Source of the DNA: a virus
Length of the DNA: 26,878 bases
IMG/VR virus record: IMGVR_UViG_3300010883_000349
Span: 1-26,878 of that record
Direction: 5' to 3' (one strand)
The translations under genes were made by a program, and so were the position numbers. This document shows, piece by piece, positions 10,252 through 26,878 of this stretch. The notes under the pieces were generated by a model. That model did no database searches. It was not told the origin of the DNA and saw only the letters and a program-made list of their open reading frames with translations. Position 1 is the stretch's first letter. Every line of letters begins with the position of its first letter.

Positions 10252-12123
10252 ATGGCACTTAAAAAACTAAGACAAGTATTTCAGGAAACTAACATCAATG
10301 CATTTCAAGATATGTTGAATAGCAGGGTTCTAGTAACTGAAAAAATACAAGGAGCTTCATTTCACGTTAGAAGAAACCAGACTAAATTCGAATACTATAA
10401 ATCTGGAGATTCTAGAATGAACATGATAGATAGAACGATAGTAGGTTTATATGAAACAGGTGTCAAGCACATTCAAAGTTTAGATCCTAGTATAAAGGAA
10501 CAAATGCCACATGATTGGAAATTTGGTTTTGAATATTTACCTGAACTAAATGTTTCAGACTATAAATATTCTAAACTACCTAAAAATAATTTAATACTTA
10601 CTCACATTCAAACTATGAATGAATCTGGTAAGATTAAAAAAACAATCAGCGATCCAGTTATATTAAATAAATGGTCTAAGATATTAGAAGTACAAGGACC
10701 CAGTATCATATTTGATGGTATGCTATCTCAACTTCAAAAGGAAGAATTAATAACTATTTTATCTATGTCAGATAAAGAGTTTTCAGAAGCATTTGATTAT
10801 GACCCAAACACGGATTCAAAGTTATCATTTACACAAAGGATAATTAAGACATTTAATCAAAACGCGGTTTCTCCTACTCTAAATGAAGATTTTGAAGTAG
10901 AGATTGACGGATTAATAGTTTCATTTATCGATGAGAAAAAATCTAGATCTTTTAAATTAGAAGATTTCAAAAGAACTGTAGATGAAAATAAGAGATCTAG
11001 CCACATGTATCAGATTACAATAGCTGGTCTTATAGAGTTTATTTCTACATTTGAAATGAAAGATATTCAATTAAACGAAGAAAATGCAGATTGGAGATAC
11101 ATTGAATTAATGTCAGTATTGTTTAACACATACGTTAAAGAACATTCTGCTAAATTCATTGGAGTTAATTTCGAGTCAGCTGATTTTGCTGATTCAGATT
11201 CTTTTAAACTAAATACTAAATACATTAAGAATGAAACAACTCTTTCTTATGTTGAAAACTCAATACTTGCAGAATTATTTAAAATAACACTAGGTTCTTT
11301 TAGAAAAAAGAGAAGTAAAGAAAGTGATATTATAAATGCAGAAATGTTAGAGCATTTAAATCAAATAGTAGAAACTATAGACAAGAAAGTATTTGTTGAA
11401 AACACAGATGAAAATTCAATATATGATTTTAATAATTTTATATTACATAATAGAGTAAAGTCAAGTGTTAATTTAAATGAAGCTCTTAAAGTAGATCATC
11501 CTGAACAAGGAGGAGAATTAGTGAATATGTTTGTTGGTAGATTTCAACCATTTACACTTGGACATGCCAAGGTATTAGAAACTATTCATAAAGAAAACGG
11601 CCATCCTGTTGTAGTTCTATTAGTAAAAGCTAAGAACAAGAAAAAGGAAGATGCATTTAAGAGACCTTATGACGAGAAGACACAATTAGATATGTTCAAA
11701 GCAGTTCAAAGACAATATCCATTCCTAAAAGAAATTTTTGTAATTCCAACTGGAGGTATTGATACTATGTTCAACGCAATGAGACCTAAATATGAACCCG
11801 TATTATGGGGAACAGGAAGTGATAGAATGAAAACCTATGGATTCCAAGTAAATAAAGATTCTTATAGAGAAGATCTTGGAGTTAGAAGTGATTTTGGATT
11901 ATTTGAAATTCCAAGAACAGACGATAATATTTCAGCTACTCAGGTTAGAAATGCGATGTTAGACGGAGATGAAAAACTATTTAAGTCTACAACACCAAAG
12001 GCCTTACATAAAATGTATGGTGAACTTAAGAAAAAATTAGAAGATTCAGTAGGTACTTCAGAATCAAATGAAGTTACAGAATCATTATTAACATTTAAAC
12101 AATTTTTAGAAAACAATGGATAG
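10252..12123 (+). CDS. Fusion of ligase-type nucleotidyltransferase and NMNAT-like adenylyltransferase
   Basis: A 623-residue two-domain protein. Residues 1 to about 400 look like an RNA-ligase-type nucleotidyltransferase: motif I K31-I-Q-G (VTEKIQGASFHVRR), motif III with Glu94 (FGFEYLPE), motif IV EIDGLIVSF (217-225) and motif V around Lys235 (RSFKLEDF). Residues about 422-600 are an NMN adenylyltransferase-like domain with GRFQPFTLGH (429-438; Thr replaces the first His of HxGH) and the ISATQVR signature (560-566). Between them lies LNE/A (after residue 410, base 11481), a perfect gp21-type cleavage site, so the two enzymes may be separated in the capsid. The last 14 residues (ESLLTFKQFLENNG) resemble a capsid-targeting segment placed at the C-terminus. 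The stop overlaps the next gene by 8 bases. Substrates are not shown by the sequence. Confidence 0.7.
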   Translation: MALKKLRQVFQETNINAFQDMLNSRVLVTEKIQGASFHVRRNQTKFEYYKSGDSRMNMIDRTIVGLYETGVKHIQSLDPSIKEQMPHDWKFGFEYLPELNVSDYKYSKLPKNNLILTHIQTMNESGKIKKTISDPVILNKWSKILEVQGPSIIFDGMLSQLQKEELITILSMSDKEFSEAFDYDPNTDSKLSFTQRIIKTFNQNAVSPTLNEDFEVEIDGLIVSFIDEKKSRSFKLEDFKRTVDENKRSSHMYQITIAGLIEFISTFEMKDIQLNEENADWRYIELMSVLFNTYVKEHSAKFIGVNFESADFADSDSFKLNTKYIKNETTLSYVENSILAELFKITLGSFRKKRSKESDIINAEMLEHLNQIVETIDKKVFVENTDENSIYDFNNFILHNRVKSSVNLNEALKVDHPEQGGELVNMFVGRFQPFTLGHAKVLETIHKENGHPVVVLLVKAKNKKKEDAFKRPYDEKTQLDMFKAVQRQYPFLKEIFVIPTGGIDTMFNAMRPKYEPVLWGTGSDRMKTYGFQVNKDSYREDLGVRSDFGLFEIPRTDDNISATQVRNAMLDGDEKLFKSTTPKALHKMYGELKKKLEDSVGTSESNEVTESLLTFKQFLENNG

Positions 12124-13215: not shown

Positions 13216-16179
13216 ATGAGCACTAAAAAAACATTTGAAAGTTTTGTAAATTCCGTGAATGAAAACGTGGATGCATACAAAGTATACAAGAAAGTTTCCG
13301 GAAAATATTCTCTGAGAAAACCTTCATACTGGGGAGATCTATTTAATAGTAGCGCTTCGATACCATATAAAGAATTAAGAAAATTCGATAAAGAATTAAA
13401 TTCTTTAGACGTATATACGACTAGAGAACTAGGATGTCATAGTGAATATCCTATGCAAGCTAATTTTAAAGTTCAAGTACCTCAGGTTTTTGTGCTATAT
13501 TGTAATACTGAAGGCGGAGAGCTAGGTGAATTTTACGGAATGAGTATTCTAGTAAATACAGAAGGTGCAACGTATCCAAGATATGCATGTGGTATGCCAG
13601 ACTTTGAACCAGAATTACATAATTTCGCAAATGGAATTCCTGAAAGCTATTTAGATATCGTAACAACAGGTGCTCAATTACTGTACGAATCTATTGATAA
13701 AACATCTGATGAAGATAGACAACATTATGATTTTCTATTAACACTAAGGGACTCTGGTAAAACTAACATGTTTGGTGCAGCTCCTTATTTGCAAAAAGAA
13801 TTCGGTATGAGTAAGAAAGAAGCTAGGGAAGTATTATCAAAGTGGATGAAAAGATTTAATGAAGGTAAGTTAACTGAAGCTAAAAGAGCTGGTCTTTCTA
13901 AAAAAGAAACTTTAAAAGTTGCACAGAAATTTGCGGATGCTCTTACCAAATTAGATGGTAAAAAATATACAGTTAGTTCTGATTATGAAGAAGATTCATT
14001 TGATCTAGATATTGACGGTGATGAATATGCAGGTGGTTCATATAATATTAATGATGATGGTTCAGTAGTTAACATGGCAACATGGAACCGTAAAACAAAC
14101 GTATCACCAACTTACGGTAATATGGATGATGATATTAAAACTATTATAAAGACTATTAAAAACATAAAAGAATCATCAGTTACTGAAGCAACTGTAATAA
14201 TGGATGCAATAGATCCTAAATCAAATGTACTTAAAAAACTTTTAAAGAAACATAATGTTAAAATGAAAGTTTTAACAATGAATGGACCAGGTGGTGGCCA
14301 CCCAGAAGTTGAAATGACAGGTTCACGTGAAGATTTGCAAGCAGTATTAGCTGATCCTAACGGATGGGATGATGCAGACCTAGGAGAGTATATTGAAGAA
14401 TCTAATATATTAGAAGCTAGATCTATTAATAAGATTTCAAAAGAGTTTGGAGAAACTGTAGGAAAGATGAAAGATATTGTAAAGATATACATCGCTGCAG
14501 CAGATGGAAGTGATGAGAAAGCAACAACTAGACAGCAGCTAATAGATCTAACACAAAAGAAGAAAGCTCTTGTAAAAGAACTAGATGACGCCGTAGCTGG
14601 TAAAAACAAAGATGTAAAATTAGTTATTAGCGAAGGTGTTATGTCTGACATTCACCAGATGATAGGTAATCACAAATCCTTTGATACTTTTCAGAAAGAA
14701 TTCTTTAAAGAATATGGACATAAGAAAGTGATGAAAAAAACTCCAGAGTTTTTAGAATGGTTAAAGGCACTATATAACGATTTTGAATATGCCGTTGAAG
14801 AAAAGTATACTAAAAAGTCATTATTAAAAAAATTAGGAGATGCAGACGATGCAATGATTCAAACCGGAAACGGAAAAGAATACATCATCTATAATCCCGA
14901 TTCTAATAACGATGATAATGCTGCAATGTGGCATGATAAATCAGTATTTGCCGTAGACCAAGACGGAGAAGAGCATGAAATATCATATAAAGATATAGGA
15001 TTAGTAATGGTAGAATCTATAGTTACTGAAAATTCAGTTACGTTTACATTGGATGATGGTGATTTAGACGATAAGTTTTTATCTGACAAGAGTCTTTCTA
15101 GAAATCTAGATTATAAAGAGGATGGTCGTGATACTTATTATGTTTTACCAAAAAGAGATTTTGATAGATTACAGGATTGGGCAGATACTAGTGGATATGA
15201 TACTGATGAAGTAATCGAAGTAATAGAAGAATCAGTAATTACTGAAGCTAATGGACAAACAGTAAAGGAGTTTGGCGATCTTCTTGCATTATTATTAGAT
15301 GAAGATAGCGGACTCGATATTGAACGTGCTATTATCGCAATGGCTCCAAACAAGGCCAGAGTTTTAGAAAAGCAAATTTCTACGTTGTATAAAAAACTAT
15401 TTGATCTTACAAACCAAGGGTTTGATTTAAGAGAAGTTACTGAATCTAAAATTCAAATAAAAAGAAGATATACTGATAATCATCCTGCACAAACTTCTGG
15501 TAGAAAAGCCACAGTTAGAAATGCAATGATAGAAGCTTTAGCCGATAGCGTATTAACAGAAGAAGAGTTTAATAATATTCTAAAAGAAAAATCCATTGAC
15601 AATAAAAGATGGATGAGAAGAAATTCTAAATACTTTAAAGTAAGTGAAGGTGGAATTACTCTTTCTAAATTTGGAAAAAGAATATTGACTGGAATTAAAC
15701 CAGTTGTTAATTTAACATTAGAATCTTTTATTACAGAAAAAGCTAATATATCAGGAGCTTATAATGATTTAGAAAATTTATTAGGAACTGACATGGAAAC
15801 CATGGATGATTTTCAAAGAATTGAAAATGATGGTACATGGGAAGAAATGTCAGATTTTATAGAAATGGCCGGAGATGCTGAAGTATTAAGAAGACATAAA
15901 TTTAAATCACAAAAAGATATCGATAAATTAGCTAAATATGTTATGGGAGAATCTGTAGTTAATGAAGCTAATTATATCAAATTTAAAGGAAAGAAAGTAG
16001 ATATTAGTTCATTAGAAATGGAAGATGTTGATATGAAAGATTATCCAGATTTTTCTGATGCATACTTTAGTTATGGAGAATATTCTAATGGAAAAGAAAT
16101 GACTGACGAAGAATTATCAGATTTTACAGATGATAATTTAGATCTAGCTAATGAATTAGCGCATGACTCCTTACATTAA
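13216..16179 (+). CDS. Large modular capsid-internal polyprotein (987 aa), about nine predicted modules
   Basis: The N-terminus (KKTFESFVNSVNE) is capsid-targeting-like. Internal linkers of the type E-S-x-[VI]-x-E precede predicted prohead-protease sites. They lie after residues 221 (LTE/A), 324 (VTE/A), 400 (ILE/A), 473 (ISE/G), 677 (ITE/A) and 917 (VNE/A), with variants at 605 (VTE/N), 743 (VTE/S) and 841 (ITE/K). The intervening pieces are about 70-130 residues, mostly acidic, and look like independent domains; the first (1-221) is larger. Module 228-325 is homologous to residues 18-118 of the next protein. The last module (918-987) contains KDYPDFSDAYF. No enzymatic motif is recognised. 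The leader is a pure A/T stretch with no Shine-Dalgarno match. Inferred role: store of small proteins packed in the head and released after cleavage. Confidence 0.65.
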   Translation: MSTKKTFESFVNSVNENVDAYKVYKKVSGKYSLRKPSYWGDLFNSSASIPYKELRKFDKELNSLDVYTTRELGCHSEYPMQANFKVQVPQVFVLYCNTEGGELGEFYGMSILVNTEGATYPRYACGMPDFEPELHNFANGIPESYLDIVTTGAQLLYESIDKTSDEDRQHYDFLLTLRDSGKTNMFGAAPYLQKEFGMSKKEAREVLSKWMKRFNEGKLTEAKRAGLSKKETLKVAQKFADALTKLDGKKYTVSSDYEEDSFDLDIDGDEYAGGSYNINDDGSVVNMATWNRKTNVSPTYGNMDDDIKTIIKTIKNIKESSVTEATVIMDAIDPKSNVLKKLLKKHNVKMKVLTMNGPGGGHPEVEMTGSREDLQAVLADPNGWDDADLGEYIEESNILEARSINKISKEFGETVGKMKDIVKIYIAAADGSDEKATTRQQLIDLTQKKKALVKELDDAVAGKNKDVKLVISEGVMSDIHQMIGNHKSFDTFQKEFFKEYGHKKVMKKTPEFLEWLKALYNDFEYAVEEKYTKKSLLKKLGDADDAMIQTGNGKEYIIYNPDSNNDDNAAMWHDKSVFAVDQDGEEHEISYKDIGLVMVESIVTENSVTFTLDDGDLDDKFLSDKSLSRNLDYKEDGRDTYYVLPKRDFDRLQDWADTSGYDTDEVIEVIEESVITEANGQTVKEFGDLLALLLDEDSGLDIERAIIAMAPNKARVLEKQISTLYKKLFDLTNQGFDLREVTESKIQIKRRYTDNHPAQTSGRKATVRNAMIEALADSVLTEEEFNNILKEKSIDNKRWMRRNSKYFKVSEGGITLSKFGKRILTGIKPVVNLTLESFITEKANISGAYNDLENLLGTDMETMDDFQRIENDGTWEEMSDFIEMAGDAEVLRRHKFKSQKDIDKLAKYVMGESVVNEANYIKFKGKKVDISSLEMEDVDMKDYPDFSDAYFSYGEYSNGKEMTDEELSDFTDDNLDLANELAHDSLH
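13897..14190 (+). repeat. Duplicated protein module, copy 1
   Basis: Residues 228-325 of the 987-residue protein. Shared with copy 2: AQKFAxAL, then DGK, then DLDxDGDExAGGxY, a short turn, VNxAT, YGxxDD and a final linker with a predicted protease site. The similarity is plain at protein level but DNA identity is only moderate, so the duplication is not recent. Confidence 0.85.
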
Positions 16180-16213: not shown

Positions 16214-17560
16214 ATGAAACTATACACTAACTTCGATAATTTTATCAATGAAGCACAGGTTATAAAGCAGAAAGATACTGCTAAAATAGCACAAAAATTT
16301 GCATCTGCTCTTTCAAAGTCGGATGGTAAGGAATTTACAATTTCTAAAGATTCACTAGATGCTGGAGGATGGGATTTAGATATGGATGGTGATGAATTTG
16401 CCGGAGGAACTTATTTTATCGGAGATGCTGGTGAAATAGTAAATGCAGCAACAAGCAATGATGTATATGGCCACATTGACGATAGCGAAGCTGAATTAAT
16501 TAAGACACTTAAAAAAGGTAAATTTGCAAAATACAGAGCAACTGAATCTTTAGAACTTAATGAGGCTCTAGCTTCTTCTAAGTTAAGAGGATTAATAGAC
16601 ATCAAAAAAGGTGGTAAGGAATTAATTAAAGGTATATATGGTCTTGCTAAAATAGCACTAGATAAAGTCACCGATGACATGATAATTTCTAATAGCAACC
16701 CGGTTGAAGTATATAAGAAAGCAAAAACATTCGGAAACGTAATTGTATTTTGGATTTCTAGAAATGAAAAAGAAAATGAGTATGCACCTGATAGTGGATA
16801 TGCATCTAATAAGGATTATCGCGAAATGATTCCTGGAAATTGCTTATTAGCTGTTTCTAATGGAAAAAATGAAATGTTTCAGAACGATTCAATATGGACA
16901 AGAGACGAAAGCGGAAAAAGCAGAATAAACTCTAGAAGACTTAAGAACATGGGTAAATATCCTGGATCTAAAGATACTGTCGGTGTTAACAAATCACACA
17001 ACCAATATAGTGGTACCGGATTAGGTAACATTAAAAGAATTGCAGAAGTGTCTGATGAATGTTACATTATTAATCTAGACGCATTAAGAGATTCTTTATC
17101 TACTAATGACAAGACAACTTCAAGAGCAGAGGCAAAGTCTGGTGCTACGGCACTGACAGATCCTAAGAAAGTTAAAGAGGCAAACATGACAAGATACAAT
17201 GAAATTCTTGCTAAGAGAGCCGATAACCCAGATGCAATAGATAAAAAAGTTAAAGAAATTATCGAAGATGCACACCAATTCTTAATGGCTGGTTTAGCGA
17301 AGAAAGAACTTGGAAATTATAATGAATTGACAATAGGAAAAGATCCAAAAGGAAGAGAAATCAGACCAAGAGATTTAAATAACTATATTTCAAATATATT
17401 GTCAGATTATCAAGGATATGTATCAGCATACGTTAATATGAAAACTGAAGAAGAACAATACGGAACAGCCTCTTCATATTATATGAGAGATGCTAAGCGT
17501 AAAGCCCTAGAGCTTAAGCAAAGAATAGCTAAATGGGATAATAAAAATATAGTATGGTAA
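16214..17560 (+). CDS. Modular capsid-internal protein (448 aa)
   Basis: Begins MKLYTNFDNFINE/AQV. This is very close in form to the T4 internal protein I start, with a perfect gp21-type site after residue 13 (base 16252). A second site, LNE/A, follows residue 117 (base 16564). Residues 14-117 are homologous to module 228-325 of the preceding 987-residue protein. Residues 118-448 form one larger domain with no recognised family. It has a FGNVIVFWISRNEKE strand region, a Tyr/Gly-rich stretch (NQYSGTGLGNIKRIAE) and a long charged helical C-terminus. The stop overlaps an ATG of the next gene (ATGGTAA). Function unknown. The organisation suggests two mature products after prohead cleavage: a small duplicated module and a larger domain. 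Confidence 0.65.
   Translation: MKLYTNFDNFINEAQVIKQKDTAKIAQKFASALSKSDGKEFTISKDSLDAGGWDLDMDGDEFAGGTYFIGDAGEIVNAATSNDVYGHIDDSEAELIKTLKKGKFAKYRATESLELNEALASSKLRGLIDIKKGGKELIKGIYGLAKIALDKVTDDMIISNSNPVEVYKKAKTFGNVIVFWISRNEKENEYAPDSGYASNKDYREMIPGNCLLAVSNGKNEMFQNDSIWTRDESGKSRINSRRLKNMGKYPGSKDTVGVNKSHNQYSGTGLGNIKRIAEVSDECYIINLDALRDSLSTNDKTTSRAEAKSGATALTDPKKVKEANMTRYNEILAKRADNPDAIDKKVKEIIEDAHQFLMAGLAKKELGNYNELTIGKDPKGREIRPRDLNNYISNILSDYQGYVSAYVNMKTEEEQYGTASSYYMRDAKRKALELKQRIAKWDNKNIVW
16265..16567 (+). repeat. Duplicated protein module, copy 2
   Basis: Residues 18-118 of the 448-residue protein, homologous to copy 1 at 13897-14190. Here the module sits directly behind a capsid-targeting leader; in copy 1 it sits in the interior of a polyprotein. 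In both cases predicted protease sites flank it. Confidence 0.85.
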
Positions 17561-17562
17561 TT

Positions 17563-17805
17563 ATGAAACACATTAAATTATTTGAACAATATATTAACGA
17601 AGGCGCTATAGATCTATTAGCCGATGAAATAGAAGATGCAAAAACATATGACGCATTTTCTGATGGAAATTCAGTTCAAGCAAGATCAACTAAAAAAACA
17701 TGGGACGACGGTGTTCCAGTTTTAAAGTATATCGCTAGAGCTCCAAAGAAATCTGTTAAACTACCTAAGGAATTTAAAGTAGTAGACGATACTAAATATG
17801 GATAG
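17563..17805 (+). CDS. Short capsid-internal protein, possibly truncated by an in-frame TAG
   Basis: An 80-residue protein starting MKHIKLFEQYINE/GAID, a capsid-targeting leader with a perfect gp21-type site after residue 13 (base 17601). I chose the ATG at 17563 over an in-frame ATG at 17554 because it gives the leader the same form as its neighbours; the upstream start would add MVI. The frame ends at TAG (17803-17805), but the codons after it stay open for 25 more and read like protein (see 17806-17880). The full-length ancestral protein was probably about 105 residues, ending three bases before the next gene. Function of the domain is unknown. Confidence 0.55.
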   Translation: MKHIKLFEQYINEGAIDLLADEIEDAKTYDAFSDGNSVQARSTKKTWDDGVPVLKYIARAPKKSVKLPKEFKVVDDTKYG

Positions 17806-19455: not shown

Positions 19456-19482
19456 CCTTTAAAAATATTTAAACAATTTAAG

Positions 19483-19512
19483 AATGCTCTGTATAACTAC
19501 AGAGCATTTTTT
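19483..19512 (+). terminator. Rho-independent terminator
   Basis: AATGCTCTGTA (19483-19493) pairs perfectly with TACAGAGCATT (19498-19508) around a four-base TAAC loop, followed by TTTT. It lies 27 bases after the stop of the 523-residue gene and 11 bases before methylglyoxal synthase. It therefore separates the internal-protein cluster from the metabolic genes. Confidence 0.85.
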
Positions 19513-19523
19513 ATTTATACAAT

Positions 19524-19916
19524 ATGGACAGGATGAGATTCGCATTAATAGCGCACGATAATAAGAAAGCAGACATGGTAGCCTTTGTCTCTAAGAGATT
19601 AGATTTTTTTAATAATGAAGCAGTAGATATAGTTACGACTGGAACAACTGGTGAAAAGGTTAGGCATGCTGGAATTAACAGGGTTGCCACAGTAAATAGT
19701 GGACCTTTAGGCGGAGATGCAGAAATAGCGGCAATGGTAGTCAGAGGAGAAATCACAGGCGTGATATTCATGAGAGACCCTCTGGATAAACATCCACATG
19801 ATGTAGATATATCAATGTTAATGAGACTTTGCGATGTCCATGACATCCCCTTGGCTACCAACTACAGCATGGCAAGCATTCTTATCAAGTGGTATCGATC
19901 TAGGTATAAAATATAA
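19524..19916 (+). CDS. mgsA: Methylglyoxal synthase
   Basis: Converts dihydroxyacetone phosphate to methylglyoxal and phosphate, a bypass of lower glycolysis. 130 residues against about 152 in E. coli, with a shorter C-terminus. Key features are present: an ALIAHDNKK start (His11, Asp12, Lys15), the phosphate-binding TGTTG (39-43), SGPLGGD with the catalytic Asp65, and RDPL followed by HPHDVD with His92 and Asp95. These correspond to E. coli Asp71, His98 and Asp101. IPLATN near 108-113 matches the family end. All catalytic residues are kept, so it is probably active. It directly follows a terminator and is first in a short metabolic segment. In a phage this is an auxiliary metabolic gene; its benefit (phosphate release, toxicity or diversion of triose phosphate) is not shown. 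Confidence 0.88.
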   Translation: MDRMRFALIAHDNKKADMVAFVSKRLDFFNNEAVDIVTTGTTGEKVRHAGINRVATVNSGPLGGDAEIAAMVVRGEITGVIFMRDPLDKHPHDVDISMLMRLCDVHDIPLATNYSMASILIKWYRSRYKI

Positions 19917-19946: not shown

Positions 19947-20192
19947 ATGGATAACATTATCTTCAGACCCGAAAATTTTGAAACATGGTCAATTCAGGCG
20001 ATAAATAAAATCGAAACTGTAATTGATTCATGTTCTAGTCTTTCTCATCTAGATGGAGCTAAAAAATTAGTTGATAACTTTACTATTATCACTGCGCTCG
20101 AAGAAGATGACGAAAAATCTATCGAAATAATTATTCATCAATTGTGGCTTAGAGTTAAGCTACAAGAAAACAAAATATATGGATCAAACTAA
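19947..20192 (+). CDS. Small protein of unknown function
   Basis: An 81-residue acidic protein, probably all helical (NFETWSIQAINKIETVIDS; later SIEIIIHQLWLRVKLQE). No family is recognised. It ends inside the start of the cytidylyltransferase-like gene (14-base overlap), so the two are coupled. TATAAT at 19936-19941 lies only 5 bases before the ATG, too close for a normal promoter of this gene. Confidence 0.55.
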   Translation: MDNIIFRPENFETWSIQAINKIETVIDSCSSLSHLDGAKKLVDNFTIITALEEDDEKSIEIIIHQLWLRVKLQENKIYGSN

Positions 20193-20679
20193 AGGTAAAA
20201 TAGGATTCACTGCAGGGAATTTCGATCTCCTTCATCCCGGTTATATTTACACATTCGAAACAGCAAAGGAAAATTGTGACTATTTTATGGTATTTCTGCA
20301 AAGAGATCCTTCAGAAACTAGATTTACTAAATATAAGCCAGTAATTCCACTATATGAAAGATACAAAACGTTAATGGCTATTAAATACGTAGATGAAGTA
20401 GTTACGTATCAAACTGAGGAAGATCTTATTAACCTAATGGAATTTTATAAACCAGATGTTAGAATCTTAGGAGACGATTATATTGGTAAGAGATTTACAG
20501 GAGATCACATGCCAATCGAAGTTATTTATACAACTAGATCTCATAACTGGTCTACTACAAGAATTAAAGATTTAATAACCAAACAAACTATTCCACAAAA
20601 CCCTTCTATTATAGAAGAAGATAATGTAAAATCAGTAACAGCAGCTGAAGCTGAAGAACTAATAAATAAAAATAAATGA
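20179..20679 (+). CDS. Cytidylyltransferase-like protein (TagD/RfaE C-terminal type)
   Basis: A 166-residue member of the HxGH nucleotidyltransferase superfamily, related in form to glycerol-3-phosphate cytidylyltransferase and the ADP-heptose synthase C-terminal domain. It shows GFTAGNFDLLHPGY at the N-terminus, an ERYKTLMAIKYVDEV block, RILGDDYIGKRFTG, and WSTTRIK in place of the family ISTT-x-x-[RK]. The second catalytic His of HxGH is replaced by Tyr (H19-P-G-Y22), so activity or substrate may differ; I recall HPGY in some T4-like marine phage homologues. It overlaps the dehydratase by four bases. This suggests both act in making an activated sugar or polyol, but the actual substrate is unknown. 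The last ~25 residues are an acidic tail. Confidence 0.72.
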   Translation: MDQTKGKIGFTAGNFDLLHPGYIYTFETAKENCDYFMVFLQRDPSETRFTKYKPVIPLYERYKTLMAIKYVDEVVTYQTEEDLINLMEFYKPDVRILGDDYIGKRFTGDHMPIEVIYTTRSHNWSTTRIKDLITKQTIPQNPSIIEEDNVKSVTAAEAEELINKNK

Positions 20680-21605
20680 GAATAATTGTAACAGGAGGTT
20701 TCGGATTTATAGGATCTGAATTTGTAAACACGATTGGTAGAAAAAACCCAACAGCAGAAATAGTCGTAGTTGATAAAATGACGTATGCTGCCAATCCAAA
20801 TAACATTAAAACTAAAGTAACATTAATTCAGAAAGATATTTGCGAAGTAACAGTAGAAGATCTAGGAGAATATGATTTCCTTGTTCACTTCGCAGCTGAG
20901 AGCCATGTTGATAATTCTATTAAAGACGGTAGACCTTTCGTTAGAACAAACGTCGAAGGAACCTTTAATCTTTTAGAATGCGCCAGACAAAACCCTAATC
21001 TTAAGAAGTTTATTCATATTTCTACAGATGAAGTTTACGGAGACATGGACGATATTAGTAAGGACGTATTAGCGGATGAACAATTTCCGTTAGTAGCTTC
21101 TTCTTATTATTCGGCGACTAAGGCATCCTCCGATATGCTAGTCCTTTCAGCCAACCGAACGTTTGACCTTCCATATATTATTACCAGAACATGTAATAAT
21201 TATGGTGCTCATCAACATAAAGAAAAATTTATCCCAACTATAATGAGATCCATTAAGGAAGGAAAGAAAATTCCAGTATATGGCGATGGAAAACAAGTCA
21301 GAGAATGGATGGACGTAACAGACAACACTTTAGTTATTTATAACTTAATGATGTCAGATCAAGTTAATGAAGTATTTAATATTGGTTCAAATGAAAGATA
21401 CACTAATTTAGAAGTTATTGAAATGATAGGAAATATCATGGGAAGAACTCCTGAATTTGAATTTGTAGCAGACCGACTTGGACATGATAGACGATACGCA
21501 CTTAATAGCTCAAAGGTAAATGCTATTTTAGGAGAAATGATTCCCCTATCCTTTGAAGAATTTTTAAAAGAAGAAACAATTAAACTACTAGAAACTCAAT
21601 TATGA
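20676..21605 (+). CDS. rmlB: dTDP-glucose 4,6-dehydratase-like sugar nucleotide dehydratase
   Basis: Extended short-chain dehydrogenase of the RmlB type, which converts dTDP-glucose to the 4-keto-6-deoxy sugar using bound NAD+. The N-terminal Rossmann motif is GGFGFIG (7-13). The catalytic Thr-Asp-Glu is at 117-119 (STDEVYG) and Y145-x3-K149 (SYYSATKAS) is intact. NNYGAHQHKEKFIPT matches the RmlB substrate-loop signature (NNYGPYQFPEKLIP). RPFVRTNVEGT and VREWMDVTDN are also typical. Length is 309 residues, somewhat shorter than bacterial RmlB (about 350). It overlaps its neighbours by four bases on both sides. In the phage it may make a deoxysugar for DNA or virion glycosylation, or alter host surface sugars; none of this is shown here. 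Confidence 0.85.
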   Translation: MRIIVTGGFGFIGSEFVNTIGRKNPTAEIVVVDKMTYAANPNNIKTKVTLIQKDICEVTVEDLGEYDFLVHFAAESHVDNSIKDGRPFVRTNVEGTFNLLECARQNPNLKKFIHISTDEVYGDMDDISKDVLADEQFPLVASSYYSATKASSDMLVLSANRTFDLPYIITRTCNNYGAHQHKEKFIPTIMRSIKEGKKIPVYGDGKQVREWMDVTDNTLVIYNLMMSDQVNEVFNIGSNERYTNLEVIEMIGNIMGRTPEFEFVADRLGHDRRYALNSSKVNAILGEMIPLSFEEFLKEETIKLLETQL

Positions 21606-23562: not shown

Positions 23563-23912
23563 AAGTAGAAGTAAGAAGAACAGAATATAGATACATTGCC
23601 GAGGCAGGGCCTATAGTATCACTAGACACTGCCAAATTTCCAAACTTTAAAGGAACTACTGAGGAAGAATTTACTGACTATCTCGCAGAAAACTATTGGG
23701 AAATAGATGGAATGGATGAACTAATAGGTTCCAGTCTAGGAATCAGCGATGACCAAACACATTCCGCATTAGCAGATTTAGTTTATTCTGATTTAGACAT
23801 ATACTCAGACTCATCTAATAAAGGATATGAAGGAGAAATACAATTAGGAGAAAAAGACGAATCTTATAGTAAACACGGAGGATTTAAAATTAAACACGGA
23901 TCACAAATATGA
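23559..23912 (+). CDS. Acidic protein of unknown function
   Basis: A 117-residue acidic protein starting MKVEVRRTEYRYIAEAGPIV, with a helical acidic middle (EEEFTDYLAENYWEIDGMDE) and a Gly/Lys-rich end. No family is recognised. Four-base overlaps on both sides (ATGA type) place it firmly between the DUF6378-like gene and the DNA glucosyltransferase in one transcript. Confidence 0.55.
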   Translation: MKVEVRRTEYRYIAEAGPIVSLDTAKFPNFKGTTEEEFTDYLAENYWEIDGMDELIGSSLGISDDQTHSALADLVYSDLDIYSDSSNKGYEGEIQLGEKDESYSKHGGFKIKHGSQI

Positions 23913-25132
23913 AAATAGCATTAGTATTAGCAAAAGGAGTTGAAGGTTGTGGACTCACAAGACACACAATCGAATTTTATAATTGGCTTATTAAAGAAGG
24001 TCACGATGCCACAATATATGCGGCAGTTGAAAAGAAATGGCCCCGCCATAAAACAACAGATATAGTTTGTACCGAATTTAAGAGAAAAGATATTCCTAAC
24101 ATTGCTAAAGAACTTGAAAAGAGTGATGTTGTATATTATACATCATATCCTCATAAATCAGTAGGTGATGAATTCAATGAAGACTTTATTGCACATTGTA
24201 TTTATGGTTTAGAAAATCCTATTAAAATAGGAAATTGCTTAGATCATAATACTGCAAACTTAGCTAAGAATTACAAGTATTGGGAAATCATGAAATCCAT
24301 GGATGCCATGTTTAATTATTCTGCAAGATCTAATTTTGCAAATAAACTAAGAGAACATGCACCTGATACTCCTTTAATCGAAATGAACCTTAATCCTTAT
24401 GATTACGATGCATGGTCTAATACTGTAGTTCCAGTAGAGGAACAAGAGAGAAGAGCTACATATTTTGGAAGATTCGCTGGATTTAAAGATCCTTTTAGAA
24501 TGTTCGATATTATGGAACTATTAAAAGGTAATAATTTCGTAACAGAATGTAGAGGAGTTGAAAGATCTATTGGTGCCCTTCCAATGTTTTTACAAGAAGA
24601 TAGAAAAACTCTAAGAGAAGATATCTTTGAAGTTCATCCAATTAAAAATCCAGTTACATATCCACAGGTTGAAGATAAAATGTATATGTATGGGCCTTAT
24701 AATTTAGCAGAAGGAATGACGGAACTAGGAAAGTCTATGTTTGGTGCTGAATTCTTTAATCTTCCTGAAAGACTATATGGATCAATGATAGAATATGCAA
24801 TGTGTGAAGTTATTGCAGCGGGAACTATACCGTTATTTGACAAACACTGGGGAACTCACGTTATTCATAGAACCGAAGGAGTCCCGTTCATACAACTTAA
24901 GGATTTTGCAATCTTCGTAGACAAAGAAGATATTGCTGCTTCGATTCCAGAAATTTTAGAATTAGCAAACAATAACGAAAGAAGAGATGAATTTAGAAAA
25001 AACTCTCTAAGATTAGCTAAATTACACAACGCACCAGAAGTTGTTAACAATGATCTATTCGATGCAATAAGCATTGTTAATAAAAGATCAGTAGAAAAAC
25101 CAGTAGAATTAAAAACAGATTCATTGTTTTAA
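23909..25132 (+). CDS. agt: DNA alpha-glucosyltransferase (T4 Agt-like)
   Basis: GT-B fold glucosyltransferase. In T4, Agt moves glucose from UDP-glucose to 5-hydroxymethylcytosine in phage DNA, protecting it from restriction. 407 residues against 400 in T4. The start MKIALVLAKGVEGCGLTRHT aligns with T4 MRICIFMARGLEGCGVTKFS, followed by EFYNWLIKEGHDATIYAA against EQRDWFIKNGHEVTLVYA. YFGRFAGFKDPFRMFDI matches T4 IGRTTTWKGFYQMFDF, and IEYAMCEVIAAGTIPLFDKHWG matches T4 YTHLELGACGTIPVFWKSTG. It lies just upstream of gp56, the enzyme that removes dCTP, so the modification pathway is clustered. The acceptor base and the sugar used here could differ from T4. dCMP hydroxymethylase (gp42) is not in this window. 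Confidence 0.83.
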   Translation: MKIALVLAKGVEGCGLTRHTIEFYNWLIKEGHDATIYAAVEKKWPRHKTTDIVCTEFKRKDIPNIAKELEKSDVVYYTSYPHKSVGDEFNEDFIAHCIYGLENPIKIGNCLDHNTANLAKNYKYWEIMKSMDAMFNYSARSNFANKLREHAPDTPLIEMNLNPYDYDAWSNTVVPVEEQERRATYFGRFAGFKDPFRMFDIMELLKGNNFVTECRGVERSIGALPMFLQEDRKTLREDIFEVHPIKNPVTYPQVEDKMYMYGPYNLAEGMTELGKSMFGAEFFNLPERLYGSMIEYAMCEVIAAGTIPLFDKHWGTHVIHRTEGVPFIQLKDFAIFVDKEDIAASIPEILELANNNERRDEFRKNSLRLAKLHNAPEVVNNDLFDAISIVNKRSVEKPVELKTDSLF

Positions 25133-25169: not shown

Positions 25170-25637
25170 ATGGCAAATATTGACAACGAATGTAAAGATC
25201 TAGAAGTTAAAGATTTTTACGACAAATCAACAACACACTTGGCAGATATCATGGAAAACCAAAAGAAGATGCAAGAGCAGACTTATGGTTTTAACTTTAA
25301 TGATATGACAATTAGAGAAATTATGGATTTCTGGCACTGTAATACACACGCAGTTGTAGATGAAATTCATGAAATGACAGATGCCCTAGGTGGCATTAAA
25401 GACGGAAGTGGAAATGCAGTATGGAAATACTGGAAAAAAGACTTTACAAAATACGATACATTAAAGATTTCTGATATGTCCGAAGGCGACAAAAAAGAAT
25501 TGTACATGGAATGGGTAGACATTCTACATTTCTTTATTAATTATGCCGCTTCAATTGGGCTAGACGCTAAAACAGCATACAATTACTACTTCGCAAAAGC
25601 AGAAGAGAATGTTAACCGCCAGAAAAATAATTATTAA
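25170..25637 (+). CDS. 56: dCTPase/dUTPase gp56
   Basis: All-alpha NTP pyrophosphatase that hydrolyses dCTP and dUTP (and the diphosphates in T4), keeping normal cytosine out of phage DNA and feeding dCMP to hydroxymethylation. 155 residues against 171 in T4. Predicted metal-binding residues are Glu65 and Glu68 (VDEIHEMTD) and Glu114 and Asp117 (EWVDILHF). AVWKYWKKDF matches T4 AVWKKWKARY, SDMSEGDKKE matches DEMSPEDQLE, and the end YYFAKAEENVNRQKNNY matches YYLKNAENFARQDRGY. This makes a gp56 assignment better than a generic dimeric dUTPase. The stop shares a base with the ATG of DNA polymerase (TAATG), coupling precursor clean-up to synthesis. Confidence 0.87.
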   Translation: MANIDNECKDLEVKDFYDKSTTHLADIMENQKKMQEQTYGFNFNDMTIREIMDFWHCNTHAVVDEIHEMTDALGGIKDGSGNAVWKYWKKDFTKYDTLKISDMSEGDKKELYMEWVDILHFFINYAASIGLDAKTAYNYYFAKAEENVNRQKNNY

Positions 25638-26878
25638 TGATATTAGATATTGAACAAAGAGATAAAGACGTTATTATCTCATATTACGACACCGAAGGTA
25701 AAGTAGCATTTAAACAATATCCAATTTCACAATACCAAAACTGGTATGTATGCAATGACAATGATAAAGGTAGAAGCCTAGATCATAAAAATTGGGATGG
25801 CAGATCAGTTAAACTAGGAGATGCAAGACGATACAACAAGTTTTCTTTAACATATTTTCTAGATTCATTACCTGCAAAAGACAAAGAACTTATCTTTGCA
25901 TATAACATGCCAAAGACATACTTCGTAGATATTGAAACAGAAATAGTAGATGGATTTCCAAAGGCAGAAGAAGCAAAGAGTAGAATTCTATCTTTTTCTA
26001 TCATTACACCTGAACATAAGGCAATAGTATTAGGATTAGAAGACATGGATTCTAAGAGTATTCAGAAGATTGAAGACGATACTAATAAGTATTTTAAAGA
26101 TTTTGATCAAGACTGGGAATTCAAATACCAGAAGTTTGAGTCTGAATATGACATGGTTTATACATTCCTAATGAAGTTTTTACCTAAGTTTCCAATGATG
26201 ACAGGCTGGAACTTTATTAATTATGATTGGCAGTATATTGTAAATAGGTGTAAAAGATTACAGATTAATATCGCTGAAGTTTCAATGACACAATCTTTAG
26301 ATAGAAATGACAGCAGACCCTTACATATTGGAATTTTAGATTACATGCAATTATATGATAAGTATGATAGAAGTGTAAAGGTAAAAGAATCTAATGCACT
26401 TGATTATGTTTCAGGTCAGGTTCTTAATGTTAATAAGATCAAATTCACGGGCTCCTTACAGGATCTGTATAGAGATGATTTTGTTAAATACATTTACTAT
26501 AATGTGGTCGATTCTGTTTTGGTTTATTATATAGATCAGAAGTTGAAATCCATGGAAGTCCTTTTAACTCTTGCAAATATTACAAAGATGCCTTTATATA
26601 AAGCAGCATCGCCAGTGGCAGTTACAGAGTCCTTGATTGCAAGAAAACTATCAGAAGAAGGTAAACGAATTGGATCTGAAAAGAAAGAAGACAGTGAAAA
26701 GACTACACAGTATGCAGGTGCTTATGTAAAAGAGCCAATTGTAGGATATTATGCTGGTGTAAGTGCATTTGATTTTGCTTCACTATATCCTTCAATCATG
26801 AGACAATTTAATATTTCACCAGAAGCTTTTATTGAAAAAGTAGAAAAGCACGAAGTAGCCGAAAGAAGAAAGGACAAA
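25637..26878 (+). CDS. 43: DNA polymerase gp43, N-terminal part (3' partial)
   Basis: Family B replicative polymerase with 3'-5' exonuclease. The frame is open from the ATG at 25637 to the window edge: 414 codons of about 900 in T4. Exonuclease residues are kept: Asp98 and Glu100 in YFVDIETEIVDGFP (T4 ANCDIEVTGDKFP), TGWNFINYDWQYI (T4 TGWNIEGFDVPYI) and the Asp of YYNVVDS (T4 YNIIDVE). Polymerase motif A, FDFASLYPSI (about 378-387), is present just before the cut. The other polymerase motifs lie outside. The extreme N-terminus is shorter than in T4: the exonuclease Asp is at 98 rather than 112. It follows gp56 with a one-base overlap. Confidence 0.92.
   Translation, partial: MILDIEQRDKDVIISYYDTEGKVAFKQYPISQYQNWYVCNDNDKGRSLDHKNWDGRSVKLGDARRYNKFSLTYFLDSLPAKDKELIFAYNMPKTYFVDIETEIVDGFPKAEEAKSRILSFSIITPEHKAIVLGLEDMDSKSIQKIEDDTNKYFKDFDQDWEFKYQKFESEYDMVYTFLMKFLPKFPMMTGWNFINYDWQYIVNRCKRLQINIAEVSMTQSLDRNDSRPLHIGILDYMQLYDKYDRSVKVKESNALDYVSGQVLNVNKIKFTGSLQDLYRDDFVKYIYYNVVDSVLVYYIDQKLKSMEVLLTLANITKMPLYKAASPVAVTESLIARKLSEEGKRIGSEKKEDSEKTTQYAGAYVKEPIVGYYAGVSAFDFASLYPSIMRQFNISPEAFIEKVEKHEVAERRKDK

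Follow-up and report, generated by a model that had tools for sequence, protein, structure and literature searches.

A methylglyoxal synthase of Bacteroidia type predicted in a lineage of T4-like phages

A 26,878-nucleotide stretch of viral DNA (the window; its source record is a 26.9-kb fragment of a virus that infects aquatic bacteria) almost certainly encodes a methylglyoxal synthase (MGS), an enzyme that converts dihydroxyacetone phosphate (DHAP) into toxic methylglyoxal and free phosphate. The open reading frame is intact, starts with ATG and specifies 130 amino acids (Table 1). An earlier note on this DNA had proposed an MGS with intact catalytic residues at this position, and profile searches, fold comparison and residue alignment all agree with that proposal. 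The protein scores 49 bits against the Pfam MGS family (cut-off 24.1) and passes the NCBIfam equivalog NF003559 (methylglyoxal synthase) with 146.2 bits against a cut-off of 84. It narrowly misses TIGR00160 (137.7 bits, cut-off 146.9), where the alignment stops at position 120 of the 143 in the model, the C-terminus of the window protein being short. A phage-specific C-terminal truncation was considered and rejected because the MGS enzymes of Bacteroidia hosts are equally short. Solved MGS chains align in phmmer with nearly the full length of the protein (Borrelia 8u2v, E=5e-32; E. coli 1b93, E=9e-21), and a match by chance is excluded.

Residues were mapped from the phmmer ranges, which set positions 3-122 of the window protein against 11-128 of 1b93. 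The alignment confirms the numbering given previously for Asp65, His92, Asp95 and the TGTTG motif: Asp65 corresponds to D71 of E. coli, His92 to H98 and Asp95 to D101, with further active-site equivalents at His11 (H19), Lys15 (K23), T39-G43 (T45-G49), Ser59 (S65) and Gly60 (G66). In E. coli numbering, the catalytic Asp71, His98, Asp101 and His19 are all present, and the phosphate site of Lys23, TGTTG and Ser65-Gly66 is complete. D71 is the catalytic base of the E. coli enzyme, with H19 and H98 as helpers, while K23, S65 and T45-G49 make up its phosphate site (PMC7843640). In a residue check of 48 distinct phage sequences, Asp65, His92, Asp95 and His11 never varied. An AlphaFold (AF2) model built from 28 phage sequences has a mean pLDDT of 88 and resembles the MGS structures of B. 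subtilis, Thermus and E. coli with TM 0.84-0.90; all 26 of its top PDB fold matches are MGS, and CarB and PurH domains score far lower. The MGS fold is common to CarB and PurH, and some phages have IMP dehydrogenase (IMPDH) genes beside MGS, which could point to a non-enzymatic protein or one with another substrate, sensing nucleotides as CarB does or acting as an IMP cyclohydrolase as PurH does. However, such a function is highly improbable, given that CarB/ATIC structures are 14-18% identical to the window protein versus 35-48% for true MGS, a difference on which a CarB/PurH-type domain was rejected, and that every catalytic residue of MGS is kept.

Table 1. Features at and around the methylglyoxal synthase gene (window coordinates)
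Feature	Position	Strand	Evidence or remark
Hairpin of an intrinsic terminator, immediately before the MGS gene	19480..19511	+	Terminator scan: stem of 14 pairs followed by a run of T
Methylglyoxal synthase (MGS) gene	19524..19916	+	Pfam, NCBIfam and PDB sequence/fold matches; catalytic residues kept; dN/dS 0.04-0.08
Conserved 81-aa protein o81, function unassigned; marks where the MGS insertion site ends downstream	19947..20192	+	Found in relatives with or without MGS
Cytidylyltransferase-like nucleotidyltransferase (HldE/TagD-like), next in the gene run	20179..20679	+	Pfam CTP_transf_like, phrog_7878; TIGR01518/TIGR02199 below cut-off
Nucleotide-sugar dehydratase/epimerase (dTDP-glucose 4,6-dehydratase-like)	20676..21605	+	TIGR01181 319 bits, below cut-off 365; PF01370
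T4-like family-B DNA polymerase, truncated by the window end; lineage marker	25637..26878	+	phrog_2062/phrog_262

That the gene is phage-encoded, as also claimed previously, is borne out by its surroundings. Pfam and PHROGs place a T4-like primase, a UvsW-type helicase, a RuvC-like resolvase, a DNA alpha-glucosyltransferase and a family-B DNA polymerase on the same strand, and the gene order of the window recurs in contigs of up to 179 kb. The genes keep a fixed order throughout the window's lineage, running from MGS through o81 (no Pfam or PHROG match), the nucleotidyltransferase and the dehydratase to AGT, o155 and the DNA polymerase, with the exception of one short contig, L014, that stops ahead of the last genes. 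The cytidylyltransferase-like nucleotidyltransferase recurs close to MGS in other phage loci as well. The closest polymerases in the phage collection belong to uncultured huge phages, Sphingomonas phage PAU, Chryseobacterium phages and Prevotella Lak phages, and in other phages a type IX secretion signal domain is present in the products of two genes adjoining MGS; together these suggest that the host is most likely a member of the Bacteroidota.

Other genes of the window merit brief mention. The DNA alpha-glucosyltransferase relative (23909-25132; PF11440 61.5 bits, phrog_2888) suggests that the phage DNA is glucosylated. A 623-aa protein (10252-12123) carries a C-terminal cytidylyltransferase/NMN-adenylyltransferase-like domain according to Pfam and PHROGs, and its N-terminal part resembles, by eye only, an RNA-ligase adenylation domain. 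Several proteins begin with an FxxF/Y-[VIL]xE motif (902-1270, 16214-17560 and 17554-17805), examples being MKTFFEYLSEE, MKLYTNFDNFINEA and MKHIKLFEQYINEG, and the 987-aa protein at 13216-16179 repeats ESV[VI]xEA; there are 1-2 motifs per protein where 0.02-0.15 would be expected. We take these motifs to resemble the capsid-targeting sequences and prohead-protease sites of T4, and for this reason the variable gene block that bears them may encode internal head proteins.

The MGS gene is a single-gene insert between a terminator and o81, since relatives that lack it join the upstream gene and its hairpin terminator directly to o81. The hairpin in the window has a folding z-score of -4.24, and a comparable one with altered stem sequence occupies this junction in every relative folded, whether or not MGS is present. 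In the window and in L009, L004, L284, L289, L294, L295, L303, L306, L315 and L328 the loop region is similar (TATAA/TATAAT-type) while the stem bases vary. The motif TACAATATG, which occurs only twice within the window, precedes both MGS and o81 and gave no further lead. Relatives for the comparison were gathered by similarity of their DNA polymerase. Among those with a polymerase identity of 89% or more, MGS is present in 22 of 22 informative contigs, which are not 22 independent observations because many are near-identical genomes; at 80-85% polymerase identity it is found in only 1 of 25, the junction being otherwise the same, and contig L288 holds one further copy, cut at the contig end. 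The gene is thus stably held cargo in the window's lineage. The earlier note had named presence in this genome only as the case that would count against its reading; the relatives in IMG/VR and the close contigs dismiss such a single-genome curiosity. The precise insertion site, occupied or empty, also supplies natural genome pairs for testing MGS function.

Against relatives of the same lineage, dN/dS of MGS is 0.037-0.083, with synonymous sites saturated in the more distant pairs; neighbouring enzymes give similar values. This rules out a decaying gene. It also bears on whether the gene might have been captured from a host and do nothing for the phage, a view to which the accessory status of the insertion at the level of the wider lineage could lend some weight. 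Such a capture is already disfavoured and scarcely credible, even less so than a CarB- or PurH-like function, in view of the strong purifying selection, the many phage types that carry the gene and the 20-row phage-only clade described below.

In a tree of 99 MGS sequences, where many forks are unresolved because the alignment has only 125 columns, the phage copies and a few Bacteroidia copies form one clade (100/96) inside Bacteroidia MGS, and the window protein sits in a phage-only clade of 20 rows (100/99). This supports an origin of the phage gene in cellular metabolism, probably with Bacteroidia-type ancestry. The chromosomal copies in this set share about 60-70% identity with the window protein, and copies from marine Bacteroidia and relatives on bacterial contigs (L083, L091, L094 and L145-L147), which fall in the same clade at that identity, are chromosomal with other neighbours, unlike the phage gene. 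Any MGS at all was found in only 66 of 395 Bacteroidia genomes. The short-type bacterial MgsA enzymes of Thermus (1wo8/2xw6), Borrelia (8u2v) and B. subtilis (6f2c) are like the window protein in fold (TM 0.86-0.90), 45-48% identical to it and have all active-site residues in common with it. The window protein differs in being phage-borne; at 130 aa it has no C-terminal tail of the E. coli type, as in Bacteroidia hosts. Two observations concern the bacterial sequences themselves. Flavobacterium loci L101-L117 carry a tandem second MGS paralogue whose phosphate-site residues are lost (across 16 sequences T41, T42 and S59 are altered, as is G60 in most, with D65, H92 and D95 kept), which is possibly a regulatory or new-substrate copy. 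The MGS of L087 (PBNL01000050), labelled a Euryarchaeota MAG, clusters with a Crocinitomicaceae copy, so this contig is probably mis-binned.

The description of the gene as uncommon stands for named and cultured phages and fails for uncultured ones, in which two IMG/VR scans recovered 171 and 219 viral stretches encoding close MGS relatives. A second search with other bacterial MGS types returned 165 viral stretches, possibly overlapping the earlier scans and including contigs of 200-370 kb; in a quick tree their MGS fall in at least two further groups, and D65 and D95 are kept in 47 of 47 full-length sequences. Some of these contigs, whose neighbours were examined in only about a dozen cases, may be prophage or host DNA. 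In the cultured-phage collection all MGS matches are below 46% identity: seven lie on unannotated records of 1.7-20 kb named as Listeria or Enterococcus phage, another on Enterococcus phage IME_EF3 (4.3 kb) and the remainder on fecal scaffolds, and we suspect that these are bacterial DNA. PHROGs has no family matching MGS, and when the fold was compared with BFVD, no viral MGS structure matched at E values up to 0.001. MGS is frequent in uncultured phages yet missing from phage protein libraries, and annotation based on such libraries therefore overlooks it. In the literature searched, the only explicit mention of a viral MGS is a listing of auxiliary metabolic genes from Lake Baikal, where the scaffold bearing mgsA is 120 kb long and is placed in the Caulobacter phage Cr30 virotype (PMC8066274); the passage is a one-line entry without residue, selection, synteny or phylogeny analysis. 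A brine-pool study mentions 'mgsA' in passing, filed under methane metabolism. As far as could be checked, the spread and constraint of MGS in uncultured phages are undescribed, the enzyme itself being ordinary.

The genes found beside MGS across phages bear on what it may do. In L057-L059 and L064, MGS is followed by DNA polymerase and class I ribonucleotide reductase (RNR), and in G001, which is closely related to the window, an RNR gene is found about 8.4 kb past MGS. Each of the seven phages in which IMPDH matches over its full length has that gene no more than about 2.5 kb from MGS, one arrangement placing it upstream and another downstream, and two contigs have thymidylate synthase and NAMPT close by. 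Of the 80 loci in the second set, 32 have an MPPED2-like metallophosphoesterase gene downstream of MGS, mostly 0-21 bp behind it and within 2 kb in others, and this pair occurs in mostly large contigs. The tight pairs, nearly all at 0-21 bp, are those of L361-L364, L366, L376-L377, L381, L383, L387, L389-L392, L394-L398, L400, L402 and L407; L393 is an exception at about 1.1 kb. These neighbours are weak evidence because large phages commonly carry genes of nucleotide metabolism and the counts have no matched control. Only 7 of the 36 records with MGS, many of which are fragmentary, have a PhoH match above the family cut-off, so a phosphate-stress signature is not clear. Glyoxalase, aldo-keto reductase and DJ-1 were each absent from the 36-39 MGS phage records searched, while most control genomes were positive; the host must therefore process the methylglyoxal.

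Sequence analysis supports the identity of the enzyme, its residues, selection on it, its phage location, its Bacteroidia-type ancestry and its wide occurrence; from these we infer its activity, the timing of its expression and its benefit. In the role we prefer, a T4-like phage whose host is most likely a member of the Bacteroidota would express a catalytically competent MGS during infection, and this would turn host DHAP into methylglyoxal and inorganic phosphate, with Asp65 as the base, His11 and His92 assisting, and the DHAP phosphate held by Lys15, Thr39-Gly43 and Ser59. The gain would be phosphate freed and sugar phosphate drained at a time when nucleotides and DNA are being made at full speed, with detoxification left to the host. 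We favour this use of MGS, in which liberated phosphate and drained sugar phosphate would serve nucleotide synthesis, because of the nucleotide and phosphoester neighbours together with the lack of detoxification genes, and we stand evenly divided on whether this role is the true one. Among the three functional ideas of the earlier note, phosphate release for nucleotide synthesis is the best supported, circumstantially, by the IMPDH, RNR, thymidylate synthase and phosphoesterase genes adjoining MGS, ahead of uncoupling and late toxicity. Any benefit is probably conditional, since most relatives with 80-85% identical polymerases do without the gene, and the net gain in phosphate may be small because the host first spent the phosphate in DHAP.

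The main rival to phosphate release is a methylglyoxal bypass for energy and redox, in which host enzymes would carry DHAP through methylglyoxal to lactate and pyruvate and so sustain metabolism when GAPDH is short of phosphate or sugar phosphates accumulate. This bypass is established for MGS (PMC7843640), the mgsA of Flavobacterium hosts adjoins pfkA and gapA, and the phage records without a detoxification gene are consistent with it. However, it depends on host glyoxalase or reductase activity, and the neighbours of phage MGS are nucleotide and phosphoester genes, not carbon-metabolism genes; we consider it unlikely. A late toxin, with methylglyoxal building up at the end of infection to harm host macromolecules or exclude competitors, is more improbable still. 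It would fit the toxicity of the product and the lack of a known detoxification gene in the MGS phages searched, but phage DNA and proteins would also be damaged, and MGS adjoins replication and sugar-nucleotide genes, with a terminator separating it from the upstream block.

The gene lies among phage genes in a phage genome and appears to derive from cellular metabolism, two of the marks of a phage auxiliary metabolic gene. It resembles carbon and nucleotide genes of this kind (cyanophage talC, RNR, PhoH) in being a host-type metabolic enzyme kept by phage; unlike them, it yields a toxic aldehyde along with phosphate, and it lacks the library matches noted above. We also offer the tentative and rather doubtful suggestion that several lineages of large phages hold MGS as a dedicated phosphate-salvage module at the cost of toxic methylglyoxal, the 200-370 kb contigs often having the MGS-metallophosphoesterase pair. 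If the enzyme acts as predicted, a central-metabolism step that liberates phosphate and makes a reactive toxin would be added to the reactions that phages impose on aquatic bacteria.
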